The notes under the pieces are model-generated. The model worked only from the letters and a program-made list of their open reading frames with translations. It did no database searches and was not told where the DNA came from. From contig NZ_JACJRC010000028.1 in NCBI RefSeq assembly GCF_014697025.1, positions 1 to 63,458 of the forward strand: a stretch of DNA of 63,458 nt, read 5' to 3'. The position numbers were made by a program, and so were the translations under genes. Of this stretch, positions 48,357 to 61,511 are shown piece after piece. Source of the stretch: Alkalinema sp. FACHB-956. GTDB lineage: Bacteria; Cyanobacteriota; Cyanobacteriia; Leptolyngbyales; Leptolyngbyaceae. Positions within the stretch are counted from its first letter, which is position 1, and each line of letters begins with the position of its first letter.

Positions 48357-49712
48357 TCAAACCTCTGGATTTCGTCCAACTAAATGCCACACTTCCATAG
48401 GTCCTTTCCCTTTGACTACGATCGACCCCTGGGATTGACAGATAAAGTGGGATGCAAGGTATTCATAGGTCGTTTGACTAATTTGCACACAACCCGGTTC
48501 ACCGTGGGATTCCATGCGGCTAGCCGTATTCACCGTGTCACCCCAAAGATCATAGAGAAATTTTTTGCGGCCAATCACCCCGGCGACCACAGAGCCCGTA
48601 TGAATGCCGATGCGCAAATTGACGGGATAGCCGGTTTGCTGGGCAAAGCTTTTTAAATAGTGCAACATATCCAAGGCTAAGTGGGCCAGGGCCTCCGCAT
48701 GATCTTCCCGTGGCGTGGGCACACCAGACGCCACCATGTAGCAATCCCCAATAGTTTTAATTTTTTCCAACCCATACTGTTCTACAAGCTGGTCAAAGTG
48801 GGAAAACATTTCATCTAATAAATTCACCAATTCCGTTGGTGATAGTTGGGAAGACAAGGGCGTAAAGTTGACAATATCCGCAAATAAGATACTTGCGATC
48901 GCGTATTCCTGGGCGATCGTGCTGGGATCTTGCTTCAGTCGCGCCGCGATCGATTGGGGCAGAATATTCAGCAGCAGGCTTTCCGATTTACGCTTTTCGT
49001 AGGCAAGGGCGCGGCGTTGCAGGAAATCGATGCGGGCGGAAACTTCTAACAAATAACCGACCAACATGCCTGCAAAATTAATCATTCCTAGGTAGAACAA
49101 ATTCCCCAGAACAAAGATTAGCCCCGATTCCGACTGAAGCATTTGCTGACTAAACAACGCAATAAATGCATAGGTTAACCAGATAATCCAGCCGATCGTA
49201 CTGGCATAGATAAACCGAATCCGACAAAAATGAATGCCTAGGATAATAAAGACAAAGCCCATAAAATACAGTCGGTATCCGGGCTCCTCTGGCTGGGCAA
49301 TTGCAGCAATCATCACAATGCCTAAACCACCCACCAATTGCACCGTGGTGATTGCAACTTGCATCACCCGCTGAAAATTTCGAGAAAAGCTAAAAATAAT
49401 AATTGCTGTGAAGGCTGGACAAATAAAACCATAGCGAATTAGCCACGCAAAATGACGGGTAATAGGCAAATTGAAAAAATCAGCCACTCCAAATGCCCCG
49501 TAGCCAATTAGAAAAGCGATTAAGACAATTCGAATGAAAAATATAGAATTTTGATAATAAAAACTTTGAAAACGTCTTTCTAGCTCCTTTGGAAATTTCA
49601 GCTGATAGGCTAACGGCAATAACGCTGATAAATCCTGTTCTGAGAGTTCATCTTCGGTATGAGCCGTGGGAAAAATAGGAAATTTAGGAAATTGACGAGA
49701 CTCCGATTCCAT
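48357..49712 (-). CDS. Membrane-bound class III adenylate/guanylate cyclase
   Basis: A 451-residue protein with about six N-terminal membrane helices (about 55-230), a short coiled linker (RALAYEKRKSESLLLNILP) and a class III cyclase domain (about 255-445). The catalytic residues are intact: metal-binding Asp in FADIVNFT and in KTIGDCYM, and the Asn and Arg of WGDTVNTASRMES. The Lys of EKIKT is in keeping with ATP as substrate, though specificity is not proven by sequence. It would make cyclic nucleotide in the cytoplasm in response to a membrane or upstream cue. It contrasts with the degenerate cyclase at 57674. Confidence 0.9.
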   Translation of the reverse strand: MESESRQFPKFPIFPTAHTEDELSEQDLSALLPLAYQLKFPKELERRFQSFYYQNSIFFIRIVLIAFLIGYGAFGVADFFNLPITRHFAWLIRYGFICPAFTAIIIFSFSRNFQRVMQVAITTVQLVGGLGIVMIAAIAQPEEPGYRLYFMGFVFIILGIHFCRIRFIYASTIGWIIWLTYAFIALFSQQMLQSESGLIFVLGNLFYLGMINFAGMLVGYLLEVSARIDFLQRRALAYEKRKSESLLLNILPQSIAARLKQDPSTIAQEYAIASILFADIVNFTPLSSQLSPTELVNLLDEMFSHFDQLVEQYGLEKIKTIGDCYMVASGVPTPREDHAEALAHLALDMLHYLKSFAQQTGYPVNLRIGIHTGSVVAGVIGRKKFLYDLWGDTVNTASRMESHGEPGCVQISQTTYEYLASHFICQSQGSIVVKGKGPMEVWHLVGRNPEV

Positions 49713-57055: not shown

Positions 57056-57673
57056 TAGGACCTAGACCCATTTGAAAAAGGTTCTATGAATACGAGATCG
57101 CAACAGTGGATGACTCAGAATCTTAAGATTGCTTATTTTTAGAACTGAAGTCGATTCAAGGATGTCCGTTATATTTTTAAAAACGCATCTACTTCCTTTT
57201 GAAGGACGCATCTACGATCGCATGAGAGCAATTAATTCTGTAGAAGCACAGGGACTTGATCATCAGACTCAACTCCAAGCGTGTCTCAATTCATCCAGTG
57301 GAAACGGCCAATGAGGAATCCAGCAACATAAAGCATGGATTGCCACACTGACCCCAAAGATTCACGAATGAACCATAGATAAGAAAACTTGAATTCAACA
57401 CCACCTGAATGAAGGAGGAATTAAAGAACTAAATGGTAATTAACGATCGATAAAACTGTCCGTATCAAAAGCTTCAATACACCCAAAATTCAATCCACAG
57501 AAGCCCCAAACATCTCTCCGAAGACAGAAAGAATTCCACCAATTAGCAGTCGTTAGTGATGAATTTGCCTAGGGTTATAGTGTAGAAGCGATAGGGGCTT
57601 TTATACTAGGCAAACAGATTAACCAGCAATCAACTGGTGATCAGTTGCTTCGTGATAGGCTAGGGTATTGATT
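57056..57673. other. Spacer upstream of the pseudo-cyclase gene
   Basis: About 620 bases with no convincing gene. A 61-codon ORF (57129-57314) needs a TTG start and has no family features. A short inverted repeat (GCAATCAACTG...ATCAGTTGC) near 57630-57652 lies just upstream of the next gene and may be regulatory. Confidence 0.45.
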
Positions 57674-59917
57674 ATGGTATTAGCGACAATATTGCTAATT
57701 GGTTCATCAATGAAATTTTTCCGCGCTCTCAGTATCAAATCCAAGCTCATTGTAATGTTACTGATTGTCAGCGGGTGTTCCATTGGAATTACTGCATTTC
57801 TAGGATATCAAAGTGGTCGCGTCAATCTAACCAATCGTATCTTCAACCAACTCACTAGCCTCCGCGCATCCAAAGGCTATCAGATTGAGTCCTACCTCAG
57901 AACCCTGCGCTCCCATACCCAAGCCCTCAGTGCCGACTTAACTGTGATTGAAGCCCTGCAGCAATTCGATCGCGCCTACCAACAACTGGAACAAGCCCCC
58001 ATCAGCCCAAAGGCACAACAGGAATTACGCCAATACTACAGCCGGGAATTCCTCCCCCGCCTCGCCAAAACGGAGCAAGGCACCCCCGTTCTCTCCGCCT
58101 ACCTGCCGCCCAATCCCGCCGCCCAATATTTGCAGTATCACTACATTGCTAGCAATCGCAATCCCGTTGGCCAAAAACATCGTCTCGATACAGCCCCCGA
58201 TGGCAGTGAATACAGCCGACTCCATAGCAAATATCACCCAATGTTTCGAGAAATTATTGAAAAATTTGGTTATTACGATCTATTTTTAATTAACCCATCG
58301 GGCAAAATTGTCTACACCGTTTACAAAGAAACCGACTTTAGCAGTGACCTAACCCAAGGAGCCTACAGCGAAACTAATTTGGCGCGGTTAGTCGCCACGG
58401 TGCGACAGGCCAAACAGAAAAACTACGCCCACATTATTGATTTTGCGGCCTATGCACCATCCTACGGAGCTGCTGCCGCCTTCATTGCCGTTCCCATCTT
58501 CAAGACAACCCAGCACAGTAGCGATCGGGATAGTGGCACTAGCAACAATGTGAATCCGGAAGGCTCCAATCAAGACATCAGCCAGTTATTTGCCGCAGAA
58601 TTTCTGGGGGTCTTAGCCGTACAAATTCCCGTCAACGAAATCAACAGCGTCATGACCGGCAATCACAACTGGCAGCAGGATGGCCTAGGAAAAACTGGAG
58701 AGACCTATTTAGTCGGGGCCGATCGATTGATGCGATCACAGTCTCGCTTTCTCGTCGAAGATAGTGCCGGATACCTCAAGAAGCTTCAGGAGCTAGGTGC
58801 TTCTCCCACAACGCTCAAACGGATTGAAGCCTATAAAAGCACAATTCTAGAGCAAAGGGTCGATACCCGAGCCGTGAACGCAGCGCTGTATGGTAAGCAG
58901 GGTACAGAAATCATTCAAGATTACCGCGATGTTGCAGTGCTGAGTTCCTATGCTCCTTTGCGAATTGAAGGCTTGAATTGGGTCATTCTTTCGGAAATGG
59001 ATTTAACAGAAGCCTATGAACCCATTTCTTCCTTTGCCTATCAAGTCCTCATTTCAGCAACTTTATTAATGTTGCTACTAACGTTATTAGCAATGGCGAT
59101 CGCTAATTGGTTTATTCGTCCAATTCAGCGATTGATTAACTATGCCGCTACGATCGAATCCGGTGAGATTGACGCCGTGGCGGAGATTCATTCCCGGGAT
59201 GAGTTTGGTCATTTAGCCCAGTCATTTAATGCAATGGTGCACAGTCTACGGGTGCAAACCCAATTAGTAGCGCAAAAAAGTCAAGAAAATGAACAACTGC
59301 TTCTCAGTCTGTTTCCCGATGCGATCGCGCGGCGACTCAAAAAGGGAGAGAAAGACATTGCAGAACAAATTCCCAATGTTGTTGTTGTTTTTGCAGAATT
59401 GACCGGGTTTGTGCAACTCACCGCCAATCTCACCACCCAAGAAAGCGTGACCTTGTTAAACGAGTTGGTCGAAGCTTTTGATAATGTTGGCGATCGCTAT
59501 GGCATGGAAAAAATAAAAACCATGGGATATAGTTATCTCTCCGTCTGTGGCCTGTCCAATGCCTACCTAGATCACGATAAACGGGCGATTGACTTTGCCT
59601 TAGAAATGTTGACGATCCTAAGACGAGCCCAGGTAGACCATGGACTCATGCTGAATGTACGCATTGGGATTAATGCGGGGGATGTGGTGGCAGGAATTGT
59701 GGGTAAACATCGCTTCATCTACGACGTTTGGGGCGACACAATTAATATTGCCAGTACCTTGCGATCGGCCTGTCCCGCTGGGGCAATGCTCGTGGCTCCC
59801 GCGATTTACGAGCGACTCAAAGATCTCTACGCCTTTGAACCCGCAGAACTCGTCGAACTGGCCCACAATCAACACTTAGTGGCGTGGCGACTCAAACATC
59901 CCGCCGCCGTCGGATAA
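57674..59917 (+). CDS. Membrane receptor with a degenerate class III cyclase domain
   Basis: A 747-residue protein from the ATG at 57674; TTG 57668 and ATG 57713 are alternatives, the last giving a typical MKFFRALSIKSKL start. Order: TM helix (about 30-50); a long extracytoplasmic Cache-like sensor (about 55-450); TM helix (about 460-482); HAMP (about 483-540, RPIQRLINYAATIESGEID); a cyclase-like domain (about 555-740). Key residues are lost: FAD is FAE (Glu575), KxxGD is KTMGY (Tyr619), and the transition-state Arg is Thr695 after NIAS. Lys of EKIKT and Asn691 remain. Cyclisation is therefore unlikely; it may bind nucleotide or dimerise with another cyclase. The next gene encodes a channel with a CNB domain. 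Confidence 0.88.
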   Translation: MVLATILLIGSSMKFFRALSIKSKLIVMLLIVSGCSIGITAFLGYQSGRVNLTNRIFNQLTSLRASKGYQIESYLRTLRSHTQALSADLTVIEALQQFDRAYQQLEQAPISPKAQQELRQYYSREFLPRLAKTEQGTPVLSAYLPPNPAAQYLQYHYIASNRNPVGQKHRLDTAPDGSEYSRLHSKYHPMFREIIEKFGYYDLFLINPSGKIVYTVYKETDFSSDLTQGAYSETNLARLVATVRQAKQKNYAHIIDFAAYAPSYGAAAAFIAVPIFKTTQHSSDRDSGTSNNVNPEGSNQDISQLFAAEFLGVLAVQIPVNEINSVMTGNHNWQQDGLGKTGETYLVGADRLMRSQSRFLVEDSAGYLKKLQELGASPTTLKRIEAYKSTILEQRVDTRAVNAALYGKQGTEIIQDYRDVAVLSSYAPLRIEGLNWVILSEMDLTEAYEPISSFAYQVLISATLLMLLLTLLAMAIANWFIRPIQRLINYAATIESGEIDAVAEIHSRDEFGHLAQSFNAMVHSLRVQTQLVAQKSQENEQLLLSLFPDAIARRLKKGEKDIAEQIPNVVVVFAELTGFVQLTANLTTQESVTLLNELVEAFDNVGDRYGMEKIKTMGYSYLSVCGLSNAYLDHDKRAIDFALEMLTILRRAQVDHGLMLNVRIGINAGDVVAGIVGKHRFIYDVWGDTINIASTLRSACPAGAMLVAPAIYERLKDLYAFEPAELVELAHNQHLVAWRLKHPAAVG

Positions 59918-60002: not shown

Positions 60003-60071
60003 AACACTGATTGATCACGTTCTCTTACACAGACTCACCTTCCCGGTTTTCTTTTGTCCTCAAGAATCAAT

Positions 60072-61511
60072 ATGCAATTCGTTCCTGATTCGGTTTTGCT
60101 TTGGTCGTTAGCCTTGGTCATCGGCTTTCCTTGCTTAGTGATTCTGCTGGGGGAAGCAATCCAGCGCCAATCGCGACGCCGCCCCGAATTAACCAAAACC
60201 TTGGAAATTTTCCGTAATATTGTTTTACCCATCCTCGCAGGACTGTTATTTACCGAGCATGTTTTGCGGTGGAATCCGGACGATCGTCACTTTAAGATTT
60301 TAGCGACCTTGTTCTGGATTGCAATATTACATGGTTCCTTGTCGTTACTGAACGCGCTGTTGTTTGAAAAGGCCAGCGAAAATACTTGGCGATCGCGGGT
60401 TCCCAAGCTTCTGATCGACCTCTCCCGCTTGGTGTTAATTGTGGTAGGGGCTGCCTTTGTATCAGCAGTCGTGTGGAATGCTGATTTGGCCGGGGTCGCA
60501 ACGGCGCTGGGGGTCAGTTCGATCGTCCTAGGCTTGGCGTTGCAGGATACCTTAGGCAGCATCATGTCTGGAATTGCCCTGCTCTTTGAACGGCCCTTTG
60601 CCGTGGGCAATTGGTTGCGGGTGGGCGATGTGGTTGGTCAGGTGTTGGATATGAATTGGCGATCGGTGCGGTTGTTGACGCTGGAGGGGCATTTGATTGT
60701 CATTCCCCATCGCTTGATTAGCAATGAAGTCATCCGCAACTACAGCCAGCCTCAAGAACTCCATGCCGAACGGATACAAATTGGCTTTTCCTATAACGAT
60801 CCGCCCAATCAAGTCATTCAAGCCCTCCAGGAACTTGCGATTTCCACCCCCGGCATCTTGAGCCACCCTGCACCCCAAGTCTTTACGCTCCAGTACGCAG
60901 ACTCCGCAATTACCTATGAAATTAAGTTCTACATTGCAGACTATGGAGCAGTGGAAAGCATTCGCAGTCAATTAATGACCCGTCTTTGGTACATTGCCCA
61001 ACGTAATCAGTTTTCCATTCCCTTTCCCATTCGCACACTGTATCACTACCATGGCCCCACAACGACTCAGCAGGCCGATCGACGTAAATTGGACGATCGC
61101 TTACAAAAGATTCCACCCTATATTCCCCTAGAACGCCCCGCAACGGGCCTCGAGGCCGGAATACGATTGCAACATTTTGGCCGAGGTGAACGAGTGATTG
61201 TCCAAGGGAAAATGAGTGATCACTTGTACATCATTGTCTCTGGTCAAAGCTGCATGACTTATACCGATGGTCAAGGACAGGAGCATGAGGTGATGTTGCT
61301 GCACCCTGGGGACTTTTTTGGGGTGATGGCATTGTTTTCAGATGAGATGAGTCCAGTCACGATCGCGGCGTTAAGTGATTTGGAGGTGATGGCTTTGACA
61401 TTGGCCATGGTGAATCAGATGATCGATCGGCAGCCCAGTTTTGCCCGAGAAATTGCCCAAGTCCAAGATATTCAGCAACGAGCCTTAGATGCCATGCGAC
61501 GAGAACGATAG
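60072..61511 (+). CDS. MscS-type channel with C-terminal cyclic-nucleotide-binding-like domain
   Basis: A 479-residue membrane protein from the ATG at 60072; a TTG at 60054 is less likely. It has about four N-terminal helices, the MscS pore helix and beta domain (ALGVSSIVLGLALQDTLGSIMSGIALLFERPFA in part, then GNWLRVGDVVGQV), and a C-terminal CNB-fold domain (about 365-465). This is the layout of the bacterial cyclic-nucleotide-gated (bCNG) group. The phosphate-binding cassette reads PGDFFGVMALFSDEMSPVTI. The Glu of FGE is Val, and the Arg-Ser/Thr pair is Ser-Pro. Canonical cyclic-nucleotide binding is therefore doubtful. It follows the pseudo-cyclase in the same direction by 154 bases. Confidence 0.9.
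   Translation: MQFVPDSVLLWSLALVIGFPCLVILLGEAIQRQSRRRPELTKTLEIFRNIVLPILAGLLFTEHVLRWNPDDRHFKILATLFWIAILHGSLSLLNALLFEKASENTWRSRVPKLLIDLSRLVLIVVGAAFVSAVVWNADLAGVATALGVSSIVLGLALQDTLGSIMSGIALLFERPFAVGNWLRVGDVVGQVLDMNWRSVRLLTLEGHLIVIPHRLISNEVIRNYSQPQELHAERIQIGFSYNDPPNQVIQALQELAISTPGILSHPAPQVFTLQYADSAITYEIKFYIADYGAVESIRSQLMTRLWYIAQRNQFSIPFPIRTLYHYHGPTTTQQADRRKLDDRLQKIPPYIPLERPATGLEAGIRLQHFGRGERVIVQGKMSDHLYIIVSGQSCMTYTDGQGQEHEVMLLHPGDFFGVMALFSDEMSPVTIAALSDLEVMALTLAMVNQMIDRQPSFAREIAQVQDIQQRALDAMRRER

Follow-up and report, generated by a model that had tools for sequence, protein, structure and literature searches.

Receptor cyclases and cyclic-nucleotide-gated channels are the textbook halves of one messenger circuit. 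Loss of the transition-state arginine from a cyclase is expected to cause a strong drop in catalysis, and HAMP receptors are normally homodimers. The CNBD-homology domains of EAG and hERG, which are potassium channels with six transmembrane segments, have retained the CNBD fold and are not known to bind cyclic nucleotides. The bCNG channels, which belong to the MscS superfamily, combine an MscS pore with a C-terminal CNBD fold. Arginine-less cyclase domains kept for regulation or as a half-site are found in the NeoR/RGC rhodopsin cyclases and in the mammalian C1 domain (PMC12264004). In that paper, NeoR is described as lacking the N/R motif, being inactive alone and donating a metal-binding aspartate to RGC1, and Yan 1997 is cited for the role of the transition-state arginine.

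Here we describe a receptor gene and its neighbour, a receptor-channel pair that may have evolved from a circuit based on a chemical messenger and may now work without one. The window analysed is the whole stretch of 63,458 nucleotides from Alkalinema sp. FACHB-956, and the receptor in it has the following features:

57674..59917, + strand: receptor gene with dCache-like sensor, transmembrane part, HAMP and degenerate class III cyclase domain (747 amino acids, AlphaFold2 mean pLDDT 82.9)
57734..59098, + strand: N-terminal transmembrane helix, dCache-like periplasmic sensor and second transmembrane segment (residues 21-475)
59099..59251, + strand: HAMP domain (residues 476-526, Pfam E 1.7e-14)
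59363..59872, + strand: class III cyclase-like domain (residues 564-733, Pfam Guanylate_cyc PF00211, E 1.1e-38)
59396..59398, + strand: Glu575 replacing the first metal Asp (alignment, M1 at 57674)
59516..59518, + strand: Lys615, adenine-contacting, kept (in all 46 rows of the clade that includes the window)
59528..59530, + strand: Tyr619 replacing the second metal Asp (among 78 rows only in the window and L077)
59723..59725, + strand: Asp684, adenine-contacting, kept (in all 46 rows of the same clade)
59744..59746, + strand: Asn691, the Asn of the transition state, kept (in 35 of the 46 rows of this clade)
59756..59758, + strand: Thr695 replacing the transition-state Arg (68 of the 78 family rows have no Arg here)

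The open reading frame covers 57668-59917 on the forward strand from a TTG start and has no internal stop; the ATG at 57674 gives the protein of 747 amino acids. The initial annotation, made from the sequence alone, had called the frame intact and had stated that fold motifs, sensor, HAMP and membrane parts remain. Both statements agree with the open frame, with the Pfam matches and with an AlphaFold2 model built from 50 family sequences, in which the cyclase fold is intact; dCache_1 is below the Pfam cut-off in the window protein (20.2 bits vs 45) and above it in the relatives L099 and L137. The top PDB matches of the model are solved cyclases, and isolated cyclase domains gave TM-scores by target of about 0.8-0.9. 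Sequence family (PF00211) and fold are those of a class III adenylyl cyclase.

The protein resembles the Cache-HAMP-cyclase receptors in its fold and the order of its domains, in its conserved glycines and in having the Lys and Asp that contact adenine; it differs from them in having other residues in place of the transition-state Arg and of both metal Asp. In the alignment, the six active-site positions (D1 K D2 Ds N R) are EKYDNT in the window receptor and DKDDNR in the cyclase at 48357, so that the residues Glu575, Tyr619 and Thr695, as named in the initial annotation, do stand in the places of the two metal Asp and the Arg which an active class III adenylyl cyclase has. Lys615 and Asp684 occupy the adenine-contacting positions of class III cyclases. 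A sequencing error is unlikely, because EKYDNT is also found in the nearest relative, L018, which is 75% identical to the window protein, comes from a separate genome and lies on the same contig as L077. The basic residue that follows the lost Arg at a distance of two positions was considered as a substitute and rejected, as 7 of 10 relatives that do have the Arg also have Lys at that site.

Relatives were collected in two ways. When the 388 genomes of the class were searched with a sensor profile, 86 had the receptor at E 1e-20. Additionally, a named genome collection was scanned and the best 80 of 414 candidate loci were taken; these were mostly from Cyanobacteria, together with two Poribacteria loci and one Myxococcota locus. 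The active-site count comprised 78 rows, namely the window, L027 and 76 of the 80 loci. Left out of it were L147 and L156, which have an MCP-type output, L097, which is cut, and L149, which is cut and also masked. A tree of 77 rows was built from the sensor and HAMP columns alone, leaving out the same four loci and L152, and a cyclase tree with an outgroup left out the four and 11 near-duplicates, one of which was an outgroup row. In L147 the same sensor is joined to an MCP signalling domain according to Pfam, and L156 is similar by alignment.

Among the 78 receptor rows the Arg is absent in 68, the first Asp is kept in 51 (Glu in 11), the second Asp in 71, the Lys in 70 and the specificity Asp in 71. 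The complete DKDDNR set is found in seven rows, which may be active cyclases by this count, and 39 rows have kept both metal Asp, the Lys and the specificity Asp (DKDD) without the Arg. The family offers a graded series, leading from full active-site sets over Arg-less domains to the triple loss in the window. Arg loss is spread across the family, different lineages have lost different active-site residues in the alignment, and on the sensor and HAMP tree the minimum number of state changes is 3 for presence of the Arg, 7 for the first Asp and 4 for the second. With 20 canonical cyclases as outgroup, 68 family rows form one clade; branches are long and the internal root is unsure.

In the 77-row tree the window falls in a clade of 46 rows (SH-aLRT 99), none of which has the Arg. 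Lys and specificity Asp are kept in all 46 and the second metal Asp in 43, and Ala stands at the Arg position in 32. Since the two adenine-contacting residues are kept throughout, nucleotide sensing may be a role of the cyclase-like domain in this clade, and the Arg-less relatives with DKDD may bind ATP; metal binding should be poor in the window protein. A different reading would make the domain not a dead one but an ATP-gated switch or a slow enzyme of altered chemistry. The uniformity of the clade looks like a set state rather than random decay, as such a reading would have it, but Glu at the first and Tyr at the second metal position of the window protein lead one to expect weak magnesium-nucleotide binding, and loss of the Arg is expected to cut catalysis strongly, so that we regard this reading as unlikely.

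Constraint was evaluated by NG86 dN/dS of the cyclase part in pairs of rows that we selected for their closeness in the tree. Of 17 Arg-less pairs one was saturated, and the other 16 gave a dN/dS of 0.012-0.180; the Poribacteria pair gave 0.169, and the window and L077 gave 0.069 at a dS of 1.92, which is near saturation. Three DKDDNR pairs gave 0.22-0.27. Between window and L077, identity amounts to 78% for the cyclase part and 74% for the sensor, and the stem leading to these two is 0.64 in the cyclase tree vs 0.37 for sensor and HAMP. Judged by these comparisons, the cyclase-like domain is under purifying selection, i.e. held and not decaying, despite the long stem. The initial annotation had proposed that the domain is kept for something other than catalysis; that proposal is supported by constraint acting without the catalytic residues, and the phylogeny suggested there gives Arg loss as common to most of the family together with purifying selection on the domain in close pairs.

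The contrary case named there, relaxed selection with frame disruptions, did not turn up, the frames being intact in both the window and L077. It is very improbable that the domain is decaying towards a pseudogene: the long stem and the differences between lineages in the residues lost are what such a course would leave behind, but since the split of the two genomes the cyclase part has been conserved at least as well as the sensor, and dN/dS is lower in the Arg-less pairs than in the three DKDDNR pairs. One damaged locus was seen, L087 of Chroococcus sp. CMT-3BRIN-NPC107, where the receptor sensor has one stop and the channel is split into two frames in the same assembly; this double damage may be joint decay or sequencing error.

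The initial annotation overlooked the spread of Arg loss through the family, and also the adjoining MscS-CNBD channel, which accompanies the receptor family far more widely than any other neighbour. The features of the channel in the window are:

60072..61511, + strand: partner gene, MscS-type channel with C-terminal CNBD-like domain (the frame opens with TTG at 60054, ATG at 60072; PF00924, PF21082, PF00027)
61170..61430, + strand: CNBD-like domain of the channel (PF00027, E 3.5e-19)
61323..61325, + strand: Val at the ribose-binding Glu position of the phosphate-binding cassette (FGV instead of FGE; alignment)
61350..61352, + strand: Ser at the phosphate-binding Arg position of the cassette (68 Ser and 1 Asn among the 69 family rows)

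The partner shares with the bCNG channels the MscS channel domain and the C-terminal CNBD, as seen by Pfam and by fold comparison, and has Ser in place of the Arg which binds the cyclic phosphate. Its frame, like that of the receptor, is intact. The channel family comprised 72 rows including second channels of a locus, of which 3 were cut, leaving 69 with letters. The cassette Arg is replaced in every one of these 69; the ribose Glu is kept in 63, with Val in five (the window included) and Ala in one. As controls, 36 MscS-CNBD channels below the family cut-off were hand-picked from the channel match list, and 33 of them have the cassette Arg. The family therefore differs from bCNG channels in lacking the phosphate-binding Arg (69/69 vs 3/36 controls), and also in being inherited with a receptor. 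In having a CNBD fold that probably does not bind cyclic nucleotides, as judged from the residues, the partner channel is like EAG and hERG, which unlike the window system are not known to have a receptor partner.

The three controls without the phosphate-binding Arg (L206, L232, L235) have a PTTM-like motif and no cyclase in the fetched stretch of about 3 kb each side; their Arg loss is apparently an independent event. A class III cyclase was found within about 3 kb either side of the channel in 14 of the 36 control loci (L202-L217, L222-L241), in 10 of them on the same strand. All 14 cyclases have kept both Asp and the Arg, and all 14 channels have the cassette Arg; these cases include near relatives and amount to fewer than 14 independent ones. 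Such control loci are likely cAMP writer-reader pairs. On residues, the contrast is plain: an intact writer stands near an intact reader in the controls, and a broken writer stands beside a changed reader in the family.

The control loci also bear on the possibility that the pair is still driven by cyclic nucleotides, made by other cyclases and bound by the CNBD-like domain in a non-canonical way, with the receptor merely scaffolding or tuning the channel. Intact cyclases near 14 of the 36 control channels, the ribose Glu kept by most of the family and the fact that bCNG channels are a described family (referenced in PMC4560390) would all suit such an arrangement. It is nevertheless unlikely, as the Arg is replaced throughout the family and the Glu is replaced too in the window. 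We also considered, and rejected, a link by which channels would lose the ribose Glu where their receptors have Glu in place of the first metal Asp: all five Val channels have Glu receptors, and there are four counterexamples in which a Glu receptor stands with a channel that has kept the ribose Glu (L084, L088, L090, L095), with too few lineages.

The channel lies downstream of the receptor on the same strand in 68 of the 80 loci, at an approximate median gap of 6 bp; the gap of 154 bp in the window is wider than usual. Of the 12 loci without a downstream channel, 6 have less than 800 bp of contig left (L142 among these still has a channel fragment), 2 have the MCP-type output and 4 (L085, L091, L093, L154) have about 5 kb of sequence without the channel. 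Clustering of the neighbouring frames gave the channel in 69 loci; two further clusters, of 47 and 29 loci, consist of frames on the opposite strand of the channel gene. No third conserved gene was found by this clustering, the next families being present in 9, 8 and 7 loci. The pair is also present in the Poribacteria loci (L137, L139) and in the Myxococcota locus (L148). Two Symploca loci, L145 and L149, have two tandem channel genes behind the receptor, and L149 has a further cyclase-like frame upstream.

Co-inheritance was evaluated on the 388 genomes of the class, requiring a best receptor match of E 1e-100 or better and a channel match of E 1e-80 or better. These cut-offs were chosen after the lists had been seen and fall in gaps of the scores, from 6e-89 to 2e-76 for the channel and from 3e-108 to 9e-38 for the best receptor. 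Receptor and channel were both present in 76 genomes, the receptor only in 5, the channel only in 3 and neither in 304. Matches below the family channel cut-off are other MscS-CNBD channels; at E 1e-30 some match is found in 256 of the 388 genomes. Among 58 relatives the channel was found in 11 of 12 receptor genomes vs one weak match (G045) in the 46 others. Three of the receptor-only genomes (G001, G275, G293) have the receptor at or near contig ends, the others being G224 and G346. The channel-only genomes G092 and G364 have a piece of cyclase just upstream of the channel at the contig end, and G316 has a weak, interrupted receptor piece ahead of it.

For linkage in whole genomes we used 96 of 104 receptor rows, omitting the 8 weakest and partial ones, and 92 channel rows at E 1e-80 or better. 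The channel lies directly downstream of 76 of these 96 receptor matches. Several genomes, e.g. G190, G207, G219, G255 and G301, hold both genes unlinked, so that co-inheritance does not depend solely on linkage. Genome G330, which has a complete pair elsewhere, carries a second family-like channel, L219 (G330:C150), without the cassette Arg; no receptor or cyclase was found beside it in the fetched stretch.

Among 65 paired loci both Arg are absent in 57, the receptor Arg is present beside an Arg-less channel in 8, and the channel Arg is present in none. This pattern fits reading having been lost before writing, and the 8 loci mean that the two losses are not tightly tied within the family; the order of the losses is not firm, because the root of the family tree is unsure. 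In a crude partial-distance test, for which 64 pairs were used, cyclase and CNBD were not correlated beyond the background (r 0.023, as high in 192 of 500 permutations), which leaves contact through the CNBD unsupported. Weak residual links were obtained in the same test between the cyclase and the channel transmembrane part (0.23, 2 of 500) and between the sensor and the MscS core (0.21, 0 of 500).

We lean modestly towards the following explanation: the receptor is one half of a conserved two-gene receptor-channel system that arose from a cAMP writer-reader pair and that in this lineage now signals without cAMP. The ancestor would have been a cAMP-writing receptor with a cAMP-reading channel. 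The channel would have lost reading at or before the origin of the family, after which the receptor would have lost writing piecemeal in several lineages, that of the window being further along this loss than most. From the sequence comparisons we infer direct coupling of receptor and channel. Binding of a ligand to the dCache sensor would shift the HAMP domain together with the cyclase-like dimer. This movement, which a bound adenine nucleotide may tune, would then open or close the MscS channel by protein contact, without cAMP. The most specific form of the proposal is a two-protein ligand-gated channel, in which the former cyclase dimer of a Cache-HAMP receptor acts, mechanically or tuned by ATP, as the actuator of an MscS channel that carries a CNBD-like ring, with first reading and then writing lost; we offer this form tentatively, as possible rather than probable.

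In this family the two halves of the circuit have remained together while residues for writing and reading the messenger are gone. If the proposal is true, it gives a route from a second-messenger pathway to direct receptor-channel coupling and a ligand-gated MscS channel under the control of an outside chemical, and the retention of inactive enzyme domains becomes a testable question. Among the titles and abstract openings listed by our searches of the open-licence literature, there was no report of a receptor cyclase paired with an MscS-CNBD channel.

The initial annotation had suggested pairing of the receptor with the active cyclase at 48357. Using a threshold of E 1e-10 or better, the membrane part of that cyclase has orthologues in 3 of 12 receptor genomes and in 1 of 46 others, and its relatives are not conserved neighbours, so a special bond with the 48357 cyclase is poorly supported. 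Furthermore, no cyclase is among the widespread neighbours that could serve as a dedicated active partner. One of the 3 genomes, G024, is the one other genome seen to have the EKYDNT state, and a lineage-specific link of the window receptor with the 48357 cyclase may exist.

A related possibility is that the Arg-less domain gives its metal Asp to a canonical, Arg-bearing cyclase, forming a heterodimer which makes cAMP in the manner of C1 or NeoR. The precedent is NeoR as metal Asp donor to RGC1 (PMC12264004), the C1 domains of adenylyl cyclases 5, 8 and 9 can be aligned and have His, Lys and Leu in the Arg column, and both the 39 family rows with DKDD and no Arg and the presence of the 48357 orthologue in G024 would be in line with it. 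NeoR and C1 have kept the metal Asp and have an active cyclase partner, whereas the window receptor (EKYDNT) has neither metal Asp and its conserved partner is a channel. With metal Asp and Arg both missing, pairing with a canonical cyclase would leave neither of the two composite sites complete. HAMP receptors, moreover, normally homodimerise. We consider a half-cyclase role of the window protein improbable; judged by its residues, such a role would suit those relatives that have kept the metal Asp.

The genome of the window has 16 matches to PF00211, comprising the window protein, 14 in which both Asp and the Arg are kept and one partial match (L016). In two cyclases of this genome, L009 (G000:C1) and L012 (G000:C13), Asp or Glu stands in the Lys column and both metal Asp and the Arg are kept, hinting at a different substrate preference.
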